A stretch of 33,701 nucleotides of DNA from Nitrospira sp. CR1.2 (GTDB lineage: Bacteria > Nitrospirota > Nitrospiria > Nitrospirales > Nitrospiraceae): assembly GCA_014055495.1 (NCBI GenBank), contig WIAG01000039.1, positions 1 to 33,701 of the forward strand, written 5' to 3'. The translations under genes and the position numbers were made by a program. Positions 18,208 through 31,937 of the stretch are shown in pieces. Under the pieces are notes generated by a model. The model saw only the letters and a program-made list of their open reading frames with translations. It searched no databases and was not told the origin of the DNA. Within the stretch, counting starts at the first letter, position 1. Each line of letters begins with the position of its first letter.

Positions 18208-19644
18208 GTGCAGCGCATTCGTGAAGGGCTCAAAACGCGATTTCGCTCTCTGGTCACCCAGCGCACGGGCTTGGACGAGATGGCCGTCGATGATTTGGCG
18301 ACCTCGACCAAACTGCAATCGTGGGAAGCGGTCCAAATCCCCGAACGGCTTCGATTCTCTTCCCGGCTGGCCATCCTCCTGGTCACCTTTTTCATGCTCA
18401 TCGTGGCGTTCGTCCCCTGGACCCAAACCATCACCGTCACCGGACAACTCTCAGCCTACACTCCCTTTGAGCGGCCCCAGGATGTCGAAGCCCAGATCAC
18501 CGGCCGCATCAAGAAATGGCACATCTTCGAAGGCGTACGGGTGAAAGCCGGCGACGTAATTCTTGAACTTGACGACTATGACCCGAACTTCATGGCTCCG
18601 GATCTGCTGAGCCTCCTGGAACAACGCAAGCAGGCACTGGAGCAAACCCGAAAAGCCGCGCTGAGCCGAGCCGATCAACTCGATAAGCGCATCAAGGAAA
18701 TGCAGAACCTCGTGAAGGCCGCCGTCCCGTCGGCAGGTGCGCGCGTCCTCGAGGCGGAAAGCAAGGTGCGCGAAGCACGACAAAAAATCGAAGCTGCGAA
18801 GATTGCGGTCGCCACAGCCGAGCTGAACGTGGAACGGCACCAGCAATTGGCGCAACAAGGGCTGGTCTCCCAACGCGAACTGGAACTCACCATTCAAGCC
18901 GCCATCGCCAGCAAAGCGGATCTGCAAGCGACACAGGCCAACCTGGCTGCCGCCGAACAAGGAATGAAAGCGCTGAGCTTCGGACGAGAACAGGTGAGCG
19001 CGGAAGTCCTACAACGCCTGCTCGATGCGGAGGCGGCGCGGGATGCCTCGATCGGAGAAGCCGCGCGGGCCGCCGATCAAGTCGCGGACGTCTCGTTACG
19101 ACTCTCCAATGCCAACCAACGGCGCGTGGCCAGCCGGATTCTGTCACCGATCGACGGCACCGTGGTGAAAATGGCGCAGGCCGGAGCCGGCGAAACCGTG
19201 CGGCCCGGGGACAAGCTCGTGAGAATTTCTCCGAGCAGCACGGACAAGGCGATAGAAATGGTCGCCGACGGGATCGATGCTCCGTTGCTGAACGTCGGAC
19301 GGAAAGTGAAGGTTCTCTTCTACGGAATCCCTGCCATCCCGTTGCCAGCTTGGCCGGAAATGATGGCCGGCACCTATAACGGCGTCATCAAGGTCATCGA
19401 CCAGGTCGATGACGGGAAGGGCAATTTCCGTTTCTGGGTCGTGCCCGACCTCGAAGAACGCCCTTGGCCGCCGCAAGAACATGTCCGACAGGGGACCAAA
19501 GCCATGGGATGGGTCATCCTCAACCGCGTCCCGCTCTGGTACGAACTGTGGCGCCGGTTTAATCTCTTCCCGCCCGACTATCAGGAACGGCCTCCGAGCC
19601 TGATCGACACCCTCCTGCCCAAAGCCGGTCGCGGGGCCAAGTAA
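18208..19644 (+). CDS. HlyD-family periplasmic adaptor (membrane fusion protein)
   Basis: 478 aa. A cytoplasmic N-terminus of ~50 residues, one transmembrane helix (~52-70, LAILLVTFFMLIVAFVPW), a split biotinyl-lipoyl-like domain (around VEAQITGRIKKW and VRVKAGDVILELDD), then a long Ala/Glu/Gln-rich coiled coil (~135-285) and a beta-barrel region (SRILSPIDGTVVKMAQAGAGETV). Adaptors of this type bridge an inner-membrane ABC exporter and an outer-membrane TolC channel. The GTG start follows GGAGGGG. First gene of a five-gene run with a TolC-like gene, two ABC half-transporters and a helical-bundle protein. No secreted substrate gene is adjacent. Confidence 0.9.
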   Translation: MQRIREGLKTRFRSLVTQRTGLDEMAVDDLATSTKLQSWEAVQIPERLRFSSRLAILLVTFFMLIVAFVPWTQTITVTGQLSAYTPFERPQDVEAQITGRIKKWHIFEGVRVKAGDVILELDDYDPNFMAPDLLSLLEQRKQALEQTRKAALSRADQLDKRIKEMQNLVKAAVPSAGARVLEAESKVREARQKIEAAKIAVATAELNVERHQQLAQQGLVSQRELELTIQAAIASKADLQATQANLAAAEQGMKALSFGREQVSAEVLQRLLDAEAARDASIGEAARAADQVADVSLRLSNANQRRVASRILSPIDGTVVKMAQAGAGETVRPGDKLVRISPSSTDKAIEMVADGIDAPLLNVGRKVKVLFYGIPAIPLPAWPEMMAGTYNGVIKVIDQVDDGKGNFRFWVVPDLEERPWPPQEHVRQGTKAMGWVILNRVPLWYELWRRFNLFPPDYQERPPSLIDTLLPKAGRGAK

Positions 19645-19733
19645 CCAGCTCCACATTCCCGGCCCACGCGGGAGCGGCGATGATTCCTCGACGCCGATTC
19701 TTTTTCCCTCGAACGCAGAAAGGAGCGCGCTTC

Positions 19734-21221
19734 ATGAGAAACTACGCCGGGATATTGGTCATCACAGCCTGTGCGCTGTGCTGGGTGCCGGATACAAGTC
19801 CAGCCGCCGAGGAGGCTTCAAAATCGAAGGCCCTCCCGCCCATTCCGCTCTCGCTCAACGAAGTCCATGCCTGGATCGATCGGTCCCATCCGCTGCTGAA
19901 GGGAGCCGGCACCGAAAAAACATCGGCCCGAGGGAAAATGCTCAAAGCCCTGGGCGCCTTCGAACCCGTCCTCGTCAACGATACAGAAATCGAACGATTT
20001 ATCGATAAGGGAACCACCAAAACGCAGAGCGTCGGCTTCAACGACACCCTGGTGGAAGCGCGCACGCCTTGGGGGTTCCGGGGCAGCGCGGGCATCCGGC
20101 AATCCATTGGCGACGCCAAGATTCCAGATCTCGCGTTCGGGAACGGTCAACAAGTGATTCTCGGCGGGTTCTTACCCCTGCTGAAAGGGTTGATGATCAA
20201 TCCGGAACATGCGGAGCTCCAACGCTCCGAATTAGCCGATCCCCGGGCCGAGGTGAAGATTTCCCAAACACGCCAGGATCTCTTCCTGGCCGCCGCGACG
20301 CAGTTTTGGGATTGGGTCTCCGCGGCAAAATTCGTTGATGTGCAACGTCGAGCCCTCGGGATCGCCGAAGAGCGGTTGAGGCAGGTCGAAGGCCGTGCCA
20401 AAGCGGGGGCCGTGGCGCCGCTCGACGTGGTCGAAGCGGGACAGGAAGTGCAGCGACGCCGTGAAGTCTCCATTGCTGCGCAGCGGGCCGTGGAGCAAGA
20501 ACAGTACAAAATGTCGATGTTCCTCTGGGAAAACCAAACCCCCACCACGCCGCAACTTGAGCGGGTACCCGATTTTCCGCCGCCTGCCGCACCTCCGACA
20601 TCGGAAACCGTCAAGGCCGACAAACTGCAGGCGAAAACCGACCGGCCGGAGATTCGCGAAGTCGATATCGAAGCGAAGGTCAATAACATCGACTTGGAAC
20701 TCGCCAAAAATAACCTCCTACCCAGCCTCGATCTGGAAGCCGCGCCGGCACGCGCCCCTGAAAAATTCGTCCTCGGATTGGGCTACCGTTTCGGGGCGGA
20801 ATTGCGCATCCCGATCCTGCAACGCCGAAGCCGCGGCGAGGTGATGGAAGCCCAGGCGCAAGCCGATCGGCTGGTGCTGGTGCAGAAATACCGGGAACAG
20901 CAGGTCGTGGTGGACGTGGACAATGCGTTGTCGGCGATCGAGCGGGCGAAAGAACGGGTCGCGGCGGCCGCGGAATCGCTTCGCATGGCCAGGACCCTGG
21001 AGGAGGGTGAGCGCTTCCGCTTCAGCCTGGGGGCCACCAGCGTCCTCTTTGTGAACCTCCGTGAACGGAATTCCGTCGATTCGGAGATGCAACTCGTGCG
21101 GGCGAAAGCCGACTATCAGAAGGCCTTGGCGCTGTACCAGTGGGCCACAGGCTCATGGGCGCGAAGCCAGCCTTCCGCCGTGCCGGTCAACTATCGGGTC
21201 GGCGCAAGCTTCTCCAGGTAG
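19734..21221 (+). CDS. TolC-like outer membrane efflux protein
   Basis: 495 aa from the ATG at 19734, which is preceded by AAAGGAG; the earlier ATG at 19680 would put basic sequence before the signal peptide. Signal peptide ~1-25 (ILVITACALCWVP, cleavage near SPAAEE). The rest is the outer-membrane-efflux fold: two repeats rich in long helices, with RLRQVEGRAKAGAVAPLDVVEA marking the end of the first helical hairpin and LRIPILQRRSRGEVMEAQAQ the second. Such proteins trimerise into a channel-tunnel across outer membrane and periplasm. Placed 89 bp after the HlyD-like gene, as in type I systems. Confidence 0.9.
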   Translation: MRNYAGILVITACALCWVPDTSPAAEEASKSKALPPIPLSLNEVHAWIDRSHPLLKGAGTEKTSARGKMLKALGAFEPVLVNDTEIERFIDKGTTKTQSVGFNDTLVEARTPWGFRGSAGIRQSIGDAKIPDLAFGNGQQVILGGFLPLLKGLMINPEHAELQRSELADPRAEVKISQTRQDLFLAAATQFWDWVSAAKFVDVQRRALGIAEERLRQVEGRAKAGAVAPLDVVEAGQEVQRRREVSIAAQRAVEQEQYKMSMFLWENQTPTTPQLERVPDFPPPAAPPTSETVKADKLQAKTDRPEIREVDIEAKVNNIDLELAKNNLLPSLDLEAAPARAPEKFVLGLGYRFGAELRIPILQRRSRGEVMEAQAQADRLVLVQKYREQQVVVDVDNALSAIERAKERVAAAAESLRMARTLEEGERFRFSLGATSVLFVNLRERNSVDSEMQLVRAKADYQKALALYQWATGSWARSQPSAVPVNYRVGASFSR

Positions 21222-21345: not shown

Positions 21346-23013
21346 ATGGCCCAGGATCATTCCGGCAACCAAAGCAACATGTTCCAAACGGTGGTCGGCC
21401 ACCTGGGCCTCCTCTTCCGTCTCGAACGGCGGATCCTGGGCCTCATCTTTTCCTATTCGATCGCCATCGGGCTCTTCGCGCTGATCGTACCGCTGACCGT
21501 TCAAGAACTCGTCAACACGTTTGCCTTCGCGCTGCAGCCCATCACCATCGTCACGTTGGCCGTGGTGATGGTCGCGGCCCTGCTCTTCGTCGGCGCGTTT
21601 CGAGCCCTGCAGTATTACGCGGTGGAAGTGTTGGAGCGCCGCATTTTCGCCCGCGTCGCCATTGCGATGGCGCAACAGCTCCCGCATCTGCGCTACCAGG
21701 GATTCGAGCCGCGGTTCGCAAATTTTTTCATGGAAACCATGTTCATGCAGCGGGCCGTCTCGGTCCTGTTAGTCGACCTCATCAACGTGATCGTCGGCGG
21801 CGCGGTGGGCATGACGATTCTGGTCTTTTATCACCCCTATTTCCTCCTGTATAACGCGATTCTGCTGCTCGGGTTCAACGCGGTGTTTTTTCTCATGAGT
21901 CACGGCGGGCCCAAGGCCGACCTCGAACTCTCGCACGCCAAGTACGACACGCTGCATTGGTTCCAGGAAATCGCCTACAACCTGCTCCACCTCAAGTCGA
22001 CGGATAGTCAGGCGCTGTTGATTAAAAAAACAGACCACCTTGTCGACACCTACGTCAATGTGCGCAGAACCCGATTCGGCATTCTGATCCGGCAATATCT
22101 GGGATCGCTCGGATGGCAGGCGATTGTGCATAGCGGCCTCATCGCCACCGCCGGCTGGTTACTGGGAATCGGCCAGTTGACCTTGGGACAATTTGTCGCC
22201 GCCGAAGTCGTGGTGAGCGGCATTCTGTCGAGCTTCGACGGAGTCGTGAAACGGATGGGGCATATCTATTACTTCCTCACCGCCTTGACCGAACTCGGCT
22301 TTCTGTTTTCTCTGCCGAAAGACCAGGACACCGCGACGCTGTCGATTCCCCTGCCGGACCCGACCGTGCACGGCATTCGCGTCACCTGCAAGGATCTGAC
22401 GTTCGCCCCTGCCGGAGGTCCGGCCGTATTCGAGCAATTCAACCTGGAGGTCACGCCCGGCGAAAAAGTCGGCATCTATGCAGGGTCGACGATGGCCAAA
22501 ACGACCCTGGCGCGAATCCTGGGTGGCTTGGAATCACCGACCGCCGGCGTGATCCGCTACAACGGCATCGACCTGCGCCACCTCGATCTGGACGCTGTCA
22601 ATCGGTTCAGAGGATTTATTCTGGACTCACGACTGTCGCTCTTCGAAGGCACGCTGGAAGAGAATATCGTGCTTGGGCGGGAGTATATCCCCTACAGCGA
22701 CGTGCGATGGGCGTTGCGCTTCACCGAGCTGGAAGAAGAGGTCGACGCCCTGCCCCAGGGCCTCAAGACCCACGTCCGAACGGCCGGCAAAGCTTTCGCC
22801 CCGACGCACATTGCGCGCATCCTGGTCGCCCGGGCGATCCTGGGTCGCCCGCAACTCCTCATTTTCGAGGGAATTCTTCACAACATGCATCCCGCGATGC
22901 GCGAGACCATCCTCCGCCGGCTCTGCAGCAAGGAAGAACCCTGGTCGGTGATTTTCGTGTCGAACGATCCAAATTTGACTCCACATGTCGACCGACGAAT
23001 CATGCTGAACTAA
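21346..23013 (+). CDS. ABC half-transporter with degenerate nucleotide-binding domain (copy 1)
   Basis: 555 aa. An N-terminal exporter-type membrane domain (about 30-310, six predicted helices, no C39 peptidase domain) is followed by a ~210-residue NBD. The NBD is recognisable (NLEVTPGEKVGIY, GVIRYNGIDL, FEGTLEENIVLG, DALPQGLKT, LVARAILGRPQLLIF), yet every catalytic motif differs: A-loop aromatic absent, Walker A is GSTMAKT (second Gly is Ala384, Lys385 kept), Q-loop Gln is Leu426, the LSGGQ position reads FAPTH (484-488), Walker B Asp is Glu508, catalytic Glu is Gly509, D-loop Asp is His515, H-loop His is Asn540. Family exporters hydrolyse ATP; this one probably cannot do so normally. It likely pairs with the paralogue that follows. 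AAGGG lies before the ATG. Confidence 0.88.
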   Translation: MAQDHSGNQSNMFQTVVGHLGLLFRLERRILGLIFSYSIAIGLFALIVPLTVQELVNTFAFALQPITIVTLAVVMVAALLFVGAFRALQYYAVEVLERRIFARVAIAMAQQLPHLRYQGFEPRFANFFMETMFMQRAVSVLLVDLINVIVGGAVGMTILVFYHPYFLLYNAILLLGFNAVFFLMSHGGPKADLELSHAKYDTLHWFQEIAYNLLHLKSTDSQALLIKKTDHLVDTYVNVRRTRFGILIRQYLGSLGWQAIVHSGLIATAGWLLGIGQLTLGQFVAAEVVVSGILSSFDGVVKRMGHIYYFLTALTELGFLFSLPKDQDTATLSIPLPDPTVHGIRVTCKDLTFAPAGGPAVFEQFNLEVTPGEKVGIYAGSTMAKTTLARILGGLESPTAGVIRYNGIDLRHLDLDAVNRFRGFILDSRLSLFEGTLEENIVLGREYIPYSDVRWALRFTELEEEVDALPQGLKTHVRTAGKAFAPTHIARILVARAILGRPQLLIFEGILHNMHPAMRETILRRLCSKEEPWSVIFVSNDPNLTPHVDRRIMLN

Positions 23014-23135
23014 TGCGCTCCACCGCCTCCGTCCACCTCCGACTCCTGCTCGCACACACGACCGGCGCGTGAGCCTTGACACAGAGTGCGCAATCACCCA
23101 CACTGCGCCCATAGCTGCTCGATACGAGCCGACGC

Positions 23136-24812
23136 GTGAATGACAAGGTCTCCCAACCCGCCATCCATACAGCCTCAGCTTGGACCATTCTCGCACGCCT
23201 CAATCTCCTGATCGGGCTCGAACGCCGCATTCTCGCCATCGTCGCCTCTTACGCGGTCGCCATCGGACTCCTCGCGCTCATCGTACCGCTCACCGTGCAG
23301 GAACTGGTGAACACCTTTGCCTTCGCCATCCAACCGATCATGATCGTGACGCTCGTGGCCACGATGCTTGCGGCACTGCTGCTCATGGGCACATTCCGCG
23401 TGCTCCAGGGACGGGCCGTGGAAGTACTGGTGCAACGAATCTACACACGTCTGGCCCTCGCCTTTACCGAGGTCCTCCCGCGCTTCCGTGAAAGCGTCTT
23501 TTTGCCCCAGCACACCAATACGTTCATCGAGGCCGAGCTGCTCCCGCGTGCGCTGATGGCGATGTTGGTCGACTTCGTCAACGTGTCGATCTCCGGCATG
23601 ATCGGCATGACGATCTTGGTCATGTATCACCCCTATTTTCTCGGCTACAACCTCCTGCTGATCGCAGGCTATGCGTGTGTATTGACTTTTTTCGGCCGCG
23701 GAGGTCTTCACATCACCCAACGGGTCTCGCAGCTGCACTACCGGACCTTTCACTGGTTGCAAGACATCGGGATCAACCGGCTCCATTTCAAATCCACCGA
23801 CAGCCTCCCGCTGCTGCTCAAGAAAACCGACGGTCTCGTCGAAGCCTATGTCCTGGCACGGAAAACACGATCGGATATTCTGACCGGCGGGCAGTATCAA
23901 AGTGCGGTCGTGTTTCAGGCCTTCGCCCACAGCGGCATGATCGGCTTGGGCGGCTGGCTGCTGTCGGTGGGCGATATCACCCTGGGACAATTCGTCGCGG
24001 CAGAGGTCATCGTCGGGACCCTGCTGCTCAATCTCGACACCGTCGCCCGACGCATGTATGCCGCCATCTCTGTCGCCACCTCGCTACATGAACTCTCCAC
24101 CCTGTTCGAAATGCCGAAAGAGGAAGTCTCCGGCCCTATTGCCTCCTGGCTTCCCGATCCCACCGAGCACGGTGTGCGCCTCACCTGCAAAGACGTCTCC
24201 TTTGCCGCGCCGGACGGACAGCCGCTCTTCGACCACTTCAGCCTCGAAGTTCTGCCGGGGGAAAAGATCAGCGTGCTCTCAGGCACTAGTCGAAGCAAAA
24301 CATCCCTCGCGCTCCTCCTCGCCGGCGTCTATCCTCCGACCGGCGGAGTCATTCGCTACAACGACATCGATCTTCGCGATGTGTCCCTCACCTACGTCAA
24401 CCGCTGTCGGGGCCTGATGCTCGATTCCCATCCCACCCTCTTCGACGGCACCCTGGAAGAAAATGTGACGCTCCGACGCCCATCGATTCAGTTCGAAGAC
24501 CTCAGCTGGGCGCTTCGATTCGCCGAGCTTGAAGAAGAAATCGACGCATTGCCCCAGGGCTTGGAGACACTCGTGCATGGGAACGGCGCTAATTTGACCC
24601 GCAGCCAGGTCCTCCGCATTCTCCTGGCTCGCATGATCGTGACCCGGCCGCACCTGTTGATCTTTAACGGCAGTCTCCACAATATCGAACCGACACTCAG
24701 GCTCACCCTGCTCCGCCGTCTGTGCGCCAAAGAGGAACCCTGGTCGGTCGTTTTCGTCTCCAACGACCCCGAGGTCAGCCAGTTGGTCGAACGTCGGGTC
24801 GTGCTGGACTGA
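23136..24812 (+). CDS. ABC half-transporter with degenerate nucleotide-binding domain (copy 2)
   Basis: 558 aa, GTG start, a tandem paralogue of the preceding gene: both share LIVPLTVQELVNTFAFA, MTILV-YHPYFL, LGQFVAAEV and most of the NBD backbone. The changes from functional ABC proteins are parallel: Walker A GTSRSKT (Gly to Ser387, Lys388 kept), Q-loop Leu429, signature LTRSQ (487-491), Walker B Asp to Asn511, catalytic Glu to Gly512, D-loop Glu518, H-loop Asn543. Neither half could complete a composite ATPase site of the other, so a standard heterodimeric exporter with one good site is unlikely. It lies 122 bp after copy 1, and no clear ribosome site precedes the GTG. Confidence 0.87.
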   Translation: MNDKVSQPAIHTASAWTILARLNLLIGLERRILAIVASYAVAIGLLALIVPLTVQELVNTFAFAIQPIMIVTLVATMLAALLLMGTFRVLQGRAVEVLVQRIYTRLALAFTEVLPRFRESVFLPQHTNTFIEAELLPRALMAMLVDFVNVSISGMIGMTILVMYHPYFLGYNLLLIAGYACVLTFFGRGGLHITQRVSQLHYRTFHWLQDIGINRLHFKSTDSLPLLLKKTDGLVEAYVLARKTRSDILTGGQYQSAVVFQAFAHSGMIGLGGWLLSVGDITLGQFVAAEVIVGTLLLNLDTVARRMYAAISVATSLHELSTLFEMPKEEVSGPIASWLPDPTEHGVRLTCKDVSFAAPDGQPLFDHFSLEVLPGEKISVLSGTSRSKTSLALLLAGVYPPTGGVIRYNDIDLRDVSLTYVNRCRGLMLDSHPTLFDGTLEENVTLRRPSIQFEDLSWALRFAELEEEIDALPQGLETLVHGNGANLTRSQVLRILLARMIVTRPHLLIFNGSLHNIEPTLRLTLLRRLCAKEEPWSVVFVSNDPEVSQLVERRVVLD

Positions 24813-24911
24813 GGGTGCGATCTGCGCCAAAACGACCTCGGCTTCTTTCCTCCTGTGCGATCTGCTAGACTGACGCGAGAGTTCGCCTGTAGCCTGACGA
24901 AAGGAACACCT

Positions 24912-25691
24912 GTGTCATTGGCAACACGCTTCAAATTATCCTTTCCCACGACGAACCAACTCATCATCAGCATCTTGATCGCAGCTTTGGGATGGGTGAG
25001 CGGCCAGGCCCTCAGCCGCATCGACCAGGACCTCCGGATCATGTACGCCGAGTACACGCTCGGTGCGGCAGACCTCGCGCATATCTCCGCCGACGTGATC
25101 CGATATCGCAACACGATCATTCGATCGCTGGAGGCGGAAAACCAAACCGTCTTCGAACGGATCACGGAATCCCTCCCGTCTCAACGTGCGAGAATTCAAC
25201 ATGCGGTGGATCGGTATGCGTCGGCGAGCCTTCGCGTCTCACGGAGCGGACGCAGCGAAGAAAAAGACATTCAAGCGGTTCGTGAAAGTCTCGACCAATA
25301 CTTCCATGTCGCCAGCAAAACTATCGATCTGCTGTCGCAGGAGTGGCGGGCAGGATCGGCGGCGGAAGCGACGGAACTTCGGCGCAAAGCCGAAATCCAT
25401 GCAGCCGACAACGGGGGCCCGAAGGTCATGCAGGTGAGCCTCGCGCTGGACCGCCTGCTGGAGACGGTGGCGGAAGTCGCCAAGGACATGCGCGACGAAG
25501 GGACCAAAACAATTGTGACCACAGGGTACTGGATCGTGGGGGGAAGTTTTTTCATTGCCTTATTGAATTTGTTTCTCGGCCGCAGCCAGGCGGCGCCCCC
25601 GATTCCCTCCTCCAGGCCGAACGAGACCGCTCCTTCCGATGCCCCCCCTGCGCCTGTCCGGCGAGGGCTCGAATCCGGCGCTGCGCGCTGA
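24912..25691 (+). CDS. Two-TM protein with periplasmic four-helix-bundle-like domain
   Basis: 259 aa from the GTG at 24912, which follows AAAGGA at good spacing; an upstream GTG at 24855 adds residues without signal. TM1 is about 17-34 and TM2 about 205-223, enclosing ~170 residues of almost pure helix that resemble the four-helix-bundle sensor of chemoreceptors (RIDQDLRIMYAEYTLGAADL, YRNTIIRSLEAEN). After TM2 there is only a ~35-residue Pro/Ala-rich tail: no HAMP, kinase, GGDEF or MCP signalling domain. It closes the secretion-like operon (99 bp after the second ABC half) and might be an accessory or sensing subunit. That is inference from position. Confidence 0.7.
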   Translation: MSLATRFKLSFPTTNQLIISILIAALGWVSGQALSRIDQDLRIMYAEYTLGAADLAHISADVIRYRNTIIRSLEAENQTVFERITESLPSQRARIQHAVDRYASASLRVSRSGRSEEKDIQAVRESLDQYFHVASKTIDLLSQEWRAGSAAEATELRRKAEIHAADNGGPKVMQVSLALDRLLETVAEVAKDMRDEGTKTIVTTGYWIVGGSFFIALLNLFLGRSQAAPPIPSSRPNETAPSDAPPAPVRRGLESGAAR

Positions 25692-26602: not shown

Positions 26603-27535
26603 TCAATGCACGCGCCGGCCGGCACGAATACGACCCAGCATGCGATAGATCAAGCGGGCGATGCTGAATTGCGGAGCGACGAACCCTTCGATCGGGGCGA
26701 TCTCACTGATGTCCATCCCCACAATCCCCGGCCCCTTCGCCAACGCGGTCACCAGCGCCAGGGTATCGTACCAGCCTAGTCCGCCTGGTTCAGGCGTCCC
26801 CAACGCCGGCACGAGCGAGGCATCGAGCCCGTCGCAATCGAAGGTGAGATAGACCGGTCCGGTGCACGCCGCCAGCACCTCGGGAATCCAGCGTGCCGCC
26901 CGGCCTTCATACGGTCCCGACGGGTCCACAATCGACGCGGCAAAAAATGTCTTGATCCGTGGCGTCTTGTCGATGAGATCCACTTCTTCCGGACTGATCG
27001 ACCGGATACCGACCTGCACGAGCGGCAACCCGTCCTGAACCACGCGCGCCATGACGCTGGCGTGACTATAGGGATTGTCCTGGTAGGCCTGGCGAAGATC
27101 GCCGTGCGCATCAATTTGCACGACACACATATCCGAATACGTCCGGGCATGGGCGCGAATGGCGCCCAACGCTCCCGTATGTTCCCCGGTCAGCGTCACA
27201 AGGAATTTCCCTCGGCCGACGTGCGGCTGCACAAAATCCTGAATCGCCTGCACCGCGTGTCCGTCGATACGCCCGCCGAGCTCCAACGTCGCGGCCGTCG
27301 CCACACCACCCCATTCGCGATAAGGTTCCTCGCGCAAGGTTTCATCGTACAGCTCGACTTGCTGGGACGCTTCAATGATGGCGGAGGGTCCCCGATCCGA
27401 CCCCAGGACATAACTCGAGGTGTGCTCGTACGGAGCCGGGAGCACGTAGACTCCCGCCTGGTCCGGATGGCACCAGGGTTCGTCGATTCCGAGGAAATTG
27501 TCGGCTTGACCAAGCCACCCGGACGGGAGCGCCAT
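26603..27535 (-). CDS. speB: Agmatinase / ureohydrolase
   Basis: 310 aa. Mn-dependent hydrolase giving putrescine and urea from agmatine. The arginase-family metal motifs are visible: GEHT (118-121, the family's GGDH site), DAHGD (142-146) and TFDCDGLD (231-238); GMDISEIAP is the usual C-terminal element. The last Asp motif is followed by AS rather than the usual P. A longer frame reaches 27709, but the ATG at 27535 lies 8 bp after the arginine decarboxylase stop, as expected for a two-gene operon. Together they convert arginine to putrescine. Other ureohydrolases are possible; context favours agmatinase. Confidence 0.9.
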   Translation of the reverse strand: MALPSGWLGQADNFLGIDEPWCHPDQAGVYVLPAPYEHTSSYVLGSDRGPSAIIEASQQVELYDETLREEPYREWGGVATAATLELGGRIDGHAVQAIQDFVQPHVGRGKFLVTLTGEHTGALGAIRAHARTYSDMCVVQIDAHGDLRQAYQDNPYSHASVMARVVQDGLPLVQVGIRSISPEEVDLIDKTPRIKTFFAASIVDPSGPYEGRAARWIPEVLAACTGPVYLTFDCDGLDASLVPALGTPEPGGLGWYDTLALVTALAKGPGIVGMDISEIAPIEGFVAPQFSIARLIYRMLGRIRAGRRVH

Positions 27536-27543
27536 GGGAGACG

Positions 27544-28119
27544 CTAGGCCTTGTTCCGAAGACTCTTGGGAATGTTTTCCGTGGGGATAAACACCGCCAA
27601 GGCGATGACGCACGTCCACCGGTTCGGCCGGCCGACTGCGGATTGCGTGATGTTGAGGGTTCTGACGATCTTTCCGCCCATCTTGAACACCTGCTCGCGT
27701 TCCTTCCACGCCACATCAGGATCGAACTCGATCCCTTGCGTCGTGGCGAGCATCTGTGCCGCCAAGTCTTCCGTATATTCACCGGATTCTTCATCCGTTT
27801 CACCGTATGCATGGTGCTCGGAAAGATAGCCGTACGTATCGCGGTCGGTCGGAATCGCCAAGCCGATGGACGCGGAAATCAGCCGATTGCGTTCATTCGT
27901 CTCAGAACGAGCCATGACACAAAACGTGATTTCACCAGGATTAAGAAACTTTTCGCCGCGCTTCCGAGGAAGAATTTTACAATGGGGCGGGAGAATCGAC
28001 GATACACTGACGAGGTTGCAATAGGCCACGCCGGCGCTCCGCAAGGCCTGCTCGAACGCAGCCAGCTTTTCCTTGTGCACCCCGACGCCCCTCGTCAAAA
28101 ACATGTGTGTTGGTACCAT
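27544..28119 (-). CDS. Pyruvoyl-dependent arginine decarboxylase
   Basis: 191 aa from the ATG at 28119, which follows GGGGAG; an upstream ATG at 28146 is less well placed. It makes agmatine from arginine using a pyruvoyl group formed by self-cleavage. The cleavage region [16 protein letters not shown] is present; by analogy with the archaeal enzyme the cut would fall between Ser40 and Ser41, leaving a ~40-residue beta chain and a ~150-residue alpha chain. Also present: VMARSETNE, and [21 protein letters not shown], typical of the family. It is upstream of speB, so the pair makes putrescine. Confidence 0.92.
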
Positions 28120-30107: not shown

Positions 30108-30761
30108 CTACTTCGACTGTGCTCCTTGCGAGGCGAGGAGCTTCTCGATTTCTTCCTCAAAGGCTTCGAACGGGAAGGCACCCGGAATGGCCAGCGCCGG
30201 ATTCTTGGCCGTCGGCTGCTGCGTCGTCCGCATCAAAATAAAACCAGGCGTACCATGGAACCCCCAGGCATTCGCCTCGTCGCGGTCCTGAAAAATCGCT
30301 TTCATATGCGGAGCATCGCGCAGGCACTGCCGGAACTGCGCCTGGTCGAGGCCAATAGCCTTGGCATGCTGAGAGTAACTATCCACGTCGAGCCGCCCAT
30401 CGGCCGCAAACAACCGGTCGTGCATGGGCCAGTAGGTGCCCTGATCCCCCGCACAACGAGCCGCGAGGGCGGCCGTCACGCCGGGCCCTTGATCGGCACG
30501 GGGATAATCCTTGTAGAAAAACCGCACTTTCCCGGTCTCGACATACCGAGCTTGAATCTTGGGCCAGGTTTCTTTGAAAAACTTGAGGCAGTACCCGCAG
30601 GTGAAATCCGAATACTCGATCAGGGTCAGGGGGGCATCCATCCTGCCGCGCATCCGACTATCCACCGTAGGCGAGCCCGCCGCCAGGACCCCGACGGCCA
30701 TCACCAGGACAAGAGCGCATGCCGCGCCGCCCCTGCGTATCCATTCGGCCACGCGGCTCAT
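30108..30761 (-). CDS. DsbA-family thiol-disulfide oxidoreductase
   Basis: 217 aa. An N-terminal signal/anchor (hydrophobic CALVLVMAVGVLAAG, ~14-29) directs it to the periplasm. Thioredoxin fold with active-site CGYC (55-58) in YSDFTCGYCLKFF, FFYKDYP, and the cis-Pro loop GFHGTPGFIL; a helical insert lies between. It may oxidise or isomerise disulfides. The ATG at 30761 overlaps the stop of the deoxyhypusine-synthase-like gene (ATGA), so it is coupled to that gene despite no clear functional tie. The other start at 30785 is less likely. Confidence 0.87.
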   Translation of the reverse strand: MSRVAEWIRRGGAACALVLVMAVGVLAAGSPTVDSRMRGRMDAPLTLIEYSDFTCGYCLKFFKETWPKIQARYVETGKVRFFYKDYPRADQGPGVTAALAARCAGDQGTYWPMHDRLFAADGRLDVDSYSQHAKAIGLDQAQFRQCLRDAPHMKAIFQDRDEANAWGFHGTPGFILMRTTQQPTAKNPALAIPGAFPFEAFEEEIEKLLASQGAQSK

Positions 30762-31861
30762 GACGAGACACTCTTCGCGCGACAACGTTCAAGCAATCCC
30801 ACCATAAGGAGCGGCCATACCAAGGTGGCGTCGCTGAGCACCTCGGCAAACCGGCCCCCCTCGGCGGGCGGTACAAACTTACCCCAGGAAATACCCTCCT
30901 GGTACGTACACCCGCTCAAGCCGCCCCAATAATCCGGCTCCGGGCAGATCCGCACGCCATAGTGAAACCGCGGCGGCGGCACGTTGAGCCCCAAACGCGT
31001 ATTGCTGATCTCGACGTACGGTGCCACCTGCTGCGCCCAGTTCCTGGGGACCCCGCCGCCGATGGTGAAAATGCCGAGCCGGGGACACCCCACCACCTCT
31101 TCCGCGTAGTGATTGAGATCGAGGTAGGGATTAAAGGCCGGGTAGACGTCGTGCAACGCCCGCAAGACCGCGAAGTCCCCACCCGCGCCGACCTGACTAC
31201 GGATAAAATCGATTTTCTTGCCCATCGCCCACGTCGCCACATCTAACCCCATTTCAGAATCGGTAAACGCAGGGATATAGACCGGCACGTTTTTCAGATA
31301 GGCGCTCTTCAGAATGCCGGGCCCCTCAAACTCCTCCGCCAACGTTTTCCCGAGTTCACGGGTCAGCAACTGCGACGACAGGGGCTGATCGGTATTGAGA
31401 CGTTTCAAGGTCAGAGCCACGATATGCTCGACGTAGTTGAGATTCGACTCCATCTCAAGCGTATCATAGACACGGTTGTAGCCCTTTTGGAACAACTCCT
31501 CGTCACTGTGGGACGGCTCGTGCCGATAATGCAGCTTCCCGACCGACTCGCTCAATCCGTGCGCGACCAACGCACCGGTCGACACGATGGCCTGGACCAT
31601 CCCACGATCGATCATGGTGCTGATGATGGTCCCCATCTTGGCGATGGTCATGGCGCCGGACAACGTCAACACGACTTTACAGTCGACATCGTCGATCATC
31701 GCGGCGAGGGTTTCGTACGCCTCGCCCAGACGACGGCCGCCGAACGCCGTCTTCCGCATCGCTTCGAGTAGTTCCGAAAACGAGTGGATCTTCTCGGGAT
31801 CCAGAGGCTCCAACGCCTCCAGGCCATCCTTGGCACCGTCGTGAAATTCCCGTCCTGCCAT
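30758..31861 (-). CDS. Deoxyhypusine-synthase-like protein, likely homospermidine synthase
   Basis: 367 aa from the ATG at 31861 (GGGAGG nine bases upstream; the frame continues to 31918 without support). NAD-dependent aminobutyl-transfer fold: LTLSGAMTIAKMG, VSTGALVAHGL, YIPAFTDSEMGLD, IFTIGGGVPRNWAQQ and QEGISWGKF, whose Lys328 corresponds to the catalytic Lys329 of human deoxyhypusine synthase. Bacteria lack eIF5A, and studied bacterial homologues (for example cyanobacterial SpeY) make homospermidine. With the nearby arginine decarboxylase and agmatinase supplying putrescine, the same role is likely here. A strong promoter lies upstream. Confidence 0.88.
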   Translation of the reverse strand: MAGREFHDGAKDGLEALEPLDPEKIHSFSELLEAMRKTAFGGRRLGEAYETLAAMIDDVDCKVVLTLSGAMTIAKMGTIISTMIDRGMVQAIVSTGALVAHGLSESVGKLHYRHEPSHSDEELFQKGYNRVYDTLEMESNLNYVEHIVALTLKRLNTDQPLSSQLLTRELGKTLAEEFEGPGILKSAYLKNVPVYIPAFTDSEMGLDVATWAMGKKIDFIRSQVGAGGDFAVLRALHDVYPAFNPYLDLNHYAEEVVGCPRLGIFTIGGGVPRNWAQQVAPYVEISNTRLGLNVPPPRFHYGVRICPEPDYWGGLSGCTYQEGISWGKFVPPAEGGRFAEVLSDATLVWPLLMVGLLERCRAKSVSS

Positions 31862-31907
31862 GATGCACGCCTCCCGACAACCATCGACCACGAATGGGTC
31901 AGGCCTT

Positions 31908-31937
31908 TTTATACACAACCGACTGTCATGGGGTCAA
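31908..31937 (-). promoter_or_regulatory. Candidate sigma70-type promoter for the DHS-like/dsbA/ALDH operon
   Basis: On the minus strand TTGACC (31937-31932) and TATAAA (31913-31908) are 18 bases apart, about 47 bases before the ATG at 31861. Good match to consensus. Confidence 0.6.

Follow-up and report, generated by a model that had tools for sequence, protein, structure and literature searches.

Introduction

Among the ATP-binding cassette (ABC) transporters of type I secretion systems (T1SS), HlyB is the structurally closest described relative of the proteins considered here, and the HlyB/HlyD complex is composed of three HlyB dimers and six HlyD subunits (PMC11026475). SbmA-like SLiPTs are proton-driven descendants of ABC membrane domains which have neither a nucleotide-binding domain (NBD) nor coupling helices (PMC13316013), and MsbA deprived of its NBD still catalyses drug efflux driven by the proton gradient (PMC4979069). 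It is a long-running question if, in nature, the membrane portion of an ABC exporter can work without ATP hydrolysis; this question rests mainly on engineered truncations and one natural family (SbmA). The window analysed here, i.e., the whole stretch of 33,701 nucleotides of contig WIAG01000039.1 from Nitrospira sp. CR1.2 (GCA_014055495.1), carries two tandem ABC half-transporters, ABC-A and ABC-B, in one operon with a HlyD adaptor and a TolC channel. With a modest lean in its favour, the reading adopted here is that the ABC-fold subunit of a tripartite T1SS-like exporter has turned into a pseudo-ATPase and would export without ATP hydrolysis of its own. No description of this family was found in the open-access literature.

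Loss of the Catalytic Motifs in Both NBDs

The operon has the order HlyD-TolC-ABC-A-ABC-B-4HB_MCP, with all genes on the + strand. The HlyD-family periplasmic adaptor, or membrane fusion protein (18208–19644, PF13437, with TIGR01843 below its cut-off), is syntenic in the Nitrospiraceae loci read, as is the TolC-family outer-membrane channel (OEP; 19680–21221, PF02321 in two stretches, 102.6 bits). ABC-A (21346–23013, 555 amino acids; open reading frame, PF00005 and structure model) and its tandem paralogue ABC-B (23136–24812, 558 amino acids, about 53% identity to ABC-A) are exporter half-transporters with intact frames, as a preliminary description of the window had stated. The membrane domain of ABC-A (residues 16–331, 21391–22338) was delimited by alignment A1 and corresponds to the part that some relatives keep alone, and the degenerate NBDs lie at 22366–23010 in ABC-A (residues 341–555) and at 24165–24809 in ABC-B.

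Position checks bore out most of the motif replacements that had been described. In Walker A, the second Gly is replaced by Ala384 in ABC-A and Ser387 in ABC-B, with Lys-Thr kept in both (remnants GSTMAKT, residues 380–386, 22483–22503, and GTSRSKT, 24282–24302). The ABC signature is replaced by FAPTH in ABC-A (484–488, 22795–22809) and by LTRSQ in ABC-B (487–491, 24594–24608). Within Walker B, which reads LLIFEG in ABC-A (504–509, 22855–22872) and LLIFNG in ABC-B (24654–24671), the Asp has become Glu508 and Asn511, respectively, and the catalytic Glu has become Gly509 and Gly512. The H-loop His corresponds to Asn540 (22963–22965) and Asn543 (24762–24764). As for the Q-loop, the loss of Gln stands for the window proteins, which have no Gln at the canonical spacing, but the replacing residue is not Leu426/Leu429 as had been assigned; compared with canonical exporters, one residue is inserted in the Q-loop region, so that this assignment is off by one or two and the canonical Gln is faced by Asp427 or Ser428 in ABC-A and by Asp430 or Ser431 in ABC-B. 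In many orthologues, a Gln lies one residue away from the canonical spacing (DSQ), and the idea that the Q-loop Gln is gone family-wide was rejected, some Bacteroidota members retaining it.

The PF00005 matches are weak (36.5 bits for ABC-A and 29.2 bits for ABC-B, cut-off 25), and most other NBDs of the same genome score 90–135 bits. The assignment to the ABC NBD family holds, with scores above the curated cut-off and an NBD fold in a model with a predicted local distance difference test score (pLDDT) of 87. Both window proteins lack the marks of a functional ABC ATPase, namely LSGGQ, the catalytic Glu and the H-loop His; as read from their sequences, the window NBDs are shown to be without the residues for ATP sandwiching and hydrolysis.

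Selection and Age of the Altered State

ABC-A was present in 28 of the 28 same-genus genomes searched, at full length and at least 87% identity in 27 of them and as two fragments in the least complete assembly; one of those 27 (G009), whose assembly is fragmented, has a copy interrupted by an internal stop. The ratios of nonsynonymous to synonymous substitution (dN/dS), taken as Nei-Gojobori pairwise medians and therefore a rough measure, are 0.038 for the NBD of ABC-A vs 0.043 for its transmembrane domain (TMD), and 0.077 for the NBD of ABC-B vs 0.074 for its TMD. Purifying selection on the dead ABC-A NBD is as strong as that on the membrane domain. The motif losses are not due to chance, because genus and family are fixed for the same replacements and dN/dS in the NBDs is 0.04–0.08. 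The locus yielded no homologue in which the Walker B Glu and LSGGQ are intact.

The earlier claim that the altered state is older than the A/B duplication and under selection agrees with the shared losses and the very low dN/dS. However, the replacements differ in age. The catalytic Gly, the non-His H-loop and the lost signature are common to ABC-A, ABC-B, the sister family f3 and two further paralogues of Nitrospiraceae, so that they predate the duplication. Most other Nitrospirales members still have the Walker B Asp, and many have the Walker A Gly; these two changes therefore came later and repeatedly, and not all shared replacements are ancestral. One of the further paralogues, L096 (G000:C34:32376-34004), is an unlinked third dead-NBD gene of the genome that holds the window; it is also conserved elsewhere in Nitrospira (L097, L114), and no HlyD or TolC gene was recognised near it. 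The fourth paralogue (L098, L099, L100 and L112, in some Nitrospira) adjoins a gene similar to the window's histidine kinase and retains the Walker A Lys and Ser/Thr, with Gly at the catalytic position as well.

ABC-B as an Optional Partner

In Nitrospira defluvii NOB1 (L039), the nearest named relative with an ABC-A of 98% identity, ABC-B is missing between ABC-A and the 4HB_MCP gene, and the same is found in L052. ABC-A stands alone in eight Nitrospira lenta-type loci (L056–L063), and both genes are present in the earlier-branching L067 and the relative L109. Since ABC-B is absent from close relatives, A and B are not an obligate pair, and an obligate heterodimer is ruled out by this loss; ABC-A probably works as a homodimer as well. 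The pair also differs from a heterodimeric exporter with one competent composite site, as both NBDs are without signature, Glu and His and ABC-B is dispensable.

Relatives That Have Lost the NBD

Seven relatives in two clades encode the membrane domain without any NBD and keep the conduit genes. The first clade belongs to Nitrospirales family f3 (G058/L110, G239/L166 and G056/L111), whose TMD-only genes encode 339–348 amino acids, stand after HlyD and TolC, and are followed downstream by dabB-dabA-type genes. The second clade is from Bacteroidota (L249–L252, four genomes, 334–349 amino acids), with HlyD and TolC downstream of the TMD-only gene in L249, L251 and L252 and TolC identified in L250. 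Each set forms one clade with an SH-aLRT of 100 in a quick tree, as all trees here are, and parsimony gives 2 losses. Read from these gene sets, the membrane domain and the conduit are shown to outlive the NBD in two other lineages.

Several artefacts were considered. A tblastn search of the flanks of L110 and L111 ruled out a frameshift and found no NBD remnant downstream of these genes. A contig-end artefact was ruled out, as the TMD-only reading frames stop within their contigs with the next gene close behind. Relocation of the NBD elsewhere was ruled out by searching whole genomes with NBD queries, NBD-bearing genomes serving as controls: the best matches in TMD-only genomes, at about 1e-20 in Nitrospirales and 1e-25 to 1e-30 in Bacteroidota, are generic exporters also found in NBD-bearing relatives, and the true NBD in the controls was matched at 3e-94 (Nitrospirales sister G052) and 5e-156 (G422).

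The Nitrospirales TMD-only genes are constrained, with dN/dS of 0.27–0.31 vs 0.09–0.18 for HlyD and 0.20–0.22 for TolC. In their proteins, the NBD-coupling segment in intracellular loop 2 (ICL2) has an identity to the sister consensus of only 0.19–0.29 vs 0.67 in NBD-bearing sisters, and all other segments lie within or next to the sisters' range. This ICL2-specific erosion suggests that the loss is real and that, in the full-length proteins, the dead NBDs still dock at this segment. In the Bacteroidota TMD-only clade, the change of the coupling segment is indistinguishable from general divergence.

Distribution and Degeneration in the Wider Family

The family is spread over Nitrospirales, Bacteroidota, Planctomycetota, one Chlorobiales genome and one sphingomonad plasmid. 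It occurs in 45 of 198 Nitrospirota genomes (all within the window's order), and the membrane-domain profile from alignment A1 detects it in 76 of 296 Bacteroidota-phylum genomes and 18 of 199 Planctomycetota-phylum genomes, the phylum of the last two samples being that of the centre genome chosen. The order ABC-HlyD-TolC is found in plasmid and genome loci, including the Bacteroidota and Planctomycetota relatives. Many Bacteroidota and Planctomycetota members, together with L075, L077 and L079, have an N-terminal extension of about 150–200 amino acids before the membrane domain which has no Pfam match, and in L175, L176, L178 and L185 three tandem TolC-like genes are followed by one pseudo-ABC gene and HlyD.

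Among the 84 NBD-bearing members aligned, the Walker A Lys is found in 73, the catalytic Glu in 11 and the H-loop His in 6. An LSTG(Q/E) signature occurs together with Glu and His in only 4 of the 84 (L253, L254, L255 and L258), all of them Bacteroidota-phylum loci, and these competent-looking members likely represent the ancestral state. For the catalytic Glu at least 6 changes are counted on the tree, with the outgroup included and the root unsure. NBD degeneration is thus the rule in the aligned members and appears to have run in parallel in several lineages.

Structure and Residues of the Membrane Domain

The predicted structure of ABC-A, made from an alignment without plasmid-derived rows, shows the whole exporter, including the NBD as a folded domain (pLDDT 86.9). 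Its best match is HlyB from the HlyB/HlyD complex (Z 29.0, 534 residues, 2.7 Å), and HlyB also comes first for the other predicted model (Z 27.9); PrtD matches the ABC-A model with Z 26.7, and the Foldseek and VIA lists are headed by ABC exporters. Glu287 in TM6 and Asp144 in TM3 are more than 90% conserved in the family and kept in all 7 of the 7 TMD-only proteins. At residue 163 (ABC-A numbering, in the YHP motif of the TM3–TM4 turn), L253–L255 and L258 have Ser and the other 87 members have His. His163 was considered as a marker of ATP independence and set aside as a lead only, as the tree holds one change within the family plus the outgroup split.

Proposed Mechanism and Alternative Explanations

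In the favoured reading, export through HlyD-TolC would be independent of ATP hydrolysis by the ABC subunit. The membrane-domain dimer, for which ABC-A alone could suffice as a homodimer with ABC-B optional, would open and close on energy from elsewhere, for which the ion-motive force is the simplest candidate, or as a gate controlled by its substrate, and would pass its cargo into the HlyD-TolC conduit. Where present, the dead NBD would probably sit on the coupling helices as a platform for docking or gating, and might also act as a receptor for cargo; the HlyB NBD carries candidate substrate-binding regions (PMC11026475), which by analogy suggests why a dead NBD would be kept as receptor or gate. 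Transport without ATP hydrolysis by this subunit is reasonable in view of the precedents of SbmA/SLiPT and NBD-less MsbA.

Several points weigh against this reading. NBD-less MsbA fails to support lipid transport in vivo (PMC8660845), so that the loss of an NBD can abolish a physiological function. The Walker A Lys and Thr persist in ABC-A and ABC-B, and most members from Bacteroidota and Planctomycetota have an intact Walker A, so that nucleotide binding is possible across much of the family. Glu287 is also present in most competent-looking members and is for this reason a candidate residue and not evidence for ATP independence; no proton pathway was identified. In addition, the root of the tree is uncertain with a very distant outgroup, and the family is known from sequence and models alone.

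A rather unlikely alternative is that the ABC-fold dimer is an idle scaffold or gated channel, which nucleates HlyD-TolC assembly and opens passively for cargo that moves down its gradient or is pulled by folding outside. The ATPase, and then the NBD, were lost while the conduit genes stayed, and the HlyB/HlyD assembly indicates a structural role of the TMD (PMC11026475), both of which would fit such a dimer; however, the TMD-only proteins match their sisters in the conservation of the transmembrane core, which goes beyond the need of a mere anchor, and the NBD of the full-length forms is strongly constrained. Strong NBD conservation would also fit NBDs which bind nucleotide as a regulatory signal without hydrolysing it, as would the Walker A Lys of most NBD-bearing members (73/84). 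This nucleotide switch is likewise rather unlikely, as the window proteins have lost the Walker A Gly and the Q-loop Gln together with the signature and the Walker B Asp, and f3 is also without the Walker A Lys, one f3 clade having then lost the NBD altogether.

It is improbable that the motor is borrowed, that is, that pseudo-ABC dimers co-assemble around the HlyD hexamer with an active ABC exporter encoded elsewhere. With three ABC dimers in each HlyB/HlyD complex (PMC11026475) a mixed occupancy is conceivable, canonical exporters are encoded in the same genome, and HlyD loci with a SecA-like ATPase in place of an ABC transporter have been described in related phyla (PMC4452313). Nevertheless, no second competent ABC gene was seen in the operons read (Nitrospirales, Bacteroidota and TMD-only genomes), the TMD-only genomes hold no ABC protein specifically related to the lost NBD, and the erosion of the coupling segment argues against an NBD docking there. 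The proposals of the preliminary description that the proteins bind but do not hydrolyse nucleotide, or borrow another ATPase, are at odds with the family taken as a whole, seven relatives having dropped the NBD.

Finally, that these are pseudogenes on the way out is very improbable: lost catalytic motifs, the missing ABC-B of some species and the internal stop in G009 could be read so, but dN/dS of 0.04–0.08, intact frames in nearly all same-genus genomes and preserved motif replacements speak against it, and for ABC-A decay is refuted by purifying selection and conserved frames, a recent loss of ABC-B in some lineages being plausible.

Genomic Neighbourhood

The last gene of the operon (24855–25691, + strand, PF12729, 41.7 bits) encodes a 4HB_MCP-type protein, i.e., the ligand-binding bundle of chemoreceptors, without a recognised signalling output domain. 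It closes the syntenic block in most Nitrospiraceae loci and is absent beside the pseudo-ABC genes in the f3 loci; it is possibly a sensor or partner of the exporter. PurE- and PurK-like genes, read from translations only, lie divergent and upstream of the operon. No substrate gene was recognised adjoining the operon, and no defence-system match was found. Farther downstream, a bacterial deoxyhypusine synthase family protein (30758–31918, PF01916, 240 bits) is encoded near an arginase-family gene (26603–27709).

Comparison with Known Systems

In this family, free-living bacteria, among them a genus of nitrite oxidisers with a central ecological role, provide many natural intermediates together with a complete tripartite conduit. 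The transition from primary to secondary transporter thereby becomes directly testable, and proteins annotated as 'ABC transporter ATP-binding protein' may use no ATP at all.

With the T1SS ABC transporters (HlyB/PrtD/PCAT1), the window locus shares the exporter fold (HlyB, Z 29.0) and the operon with HlyD adaptor and TolC channel, so that both the fold and the co-encoded conduit of a T1SS are present. Unlike them, the window proteins have no C39 or C39-like domain, their NBDs are catalytically dead and some relatives have no NBD; the NCBIfam T1SS models match them far below the cut-offs. The SecA_DEAD-HlyD loci of Planctomycetes, Nitrospirae and others are similar in that T1SS-like HlyD parts occur there with no conventional ABC ATPase, and some of the phyla are shared (PMC4452313). 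However, no ABC transporter homologue was found in them and a SecA-like ATPase was proposed (PMC4452313), and their genes are unrelated to those of the window.

TM287/288, TmrAB and MRP1, heterodimers with one degenerate site, also have degenerate motifs retained by selection (PMC7756269), but they keep one competent composite site, whereas both members of the window pair are degenerate and the partner is dispensable. MsbA-MD/LmrA likewise demonstrates that a membrane domain without NBD can export drugs via the proton gradient (PMC4979069); that is an engineered truncation of ATP-dependent exporters, whereas the loss in this family is natural, fixed and at least twofold.

SbmA/BacA (SLiPT) resemble the family in having an ABC-exporter membrane fold without ATPase and in the loss of the NBD along with the coupling elements (PMC13316013). 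SLiPTs are set apart here by their description: they are peptide importers descended from YddA that use a glutamate ladder, whereas the TMD of this family is HlyB-like and coupled to HlyD and TolC, and most members keep a dead NBD. The window proteins are not TMDs without NBD, a state found only in L110, L111, L166 and L249–L252. Tentatively, and with the balance still somewhat short of even, the family might be a widespread TolC-coupled ABC exporter lineage that switched from ATP to an ion gradient, that is, an independent counterpart of the SLiPT transition in the export direction, with all stages represented: a near-canonical NBD, a conserved pseudo-NBD, and clean deletion with the coupling segment lost.

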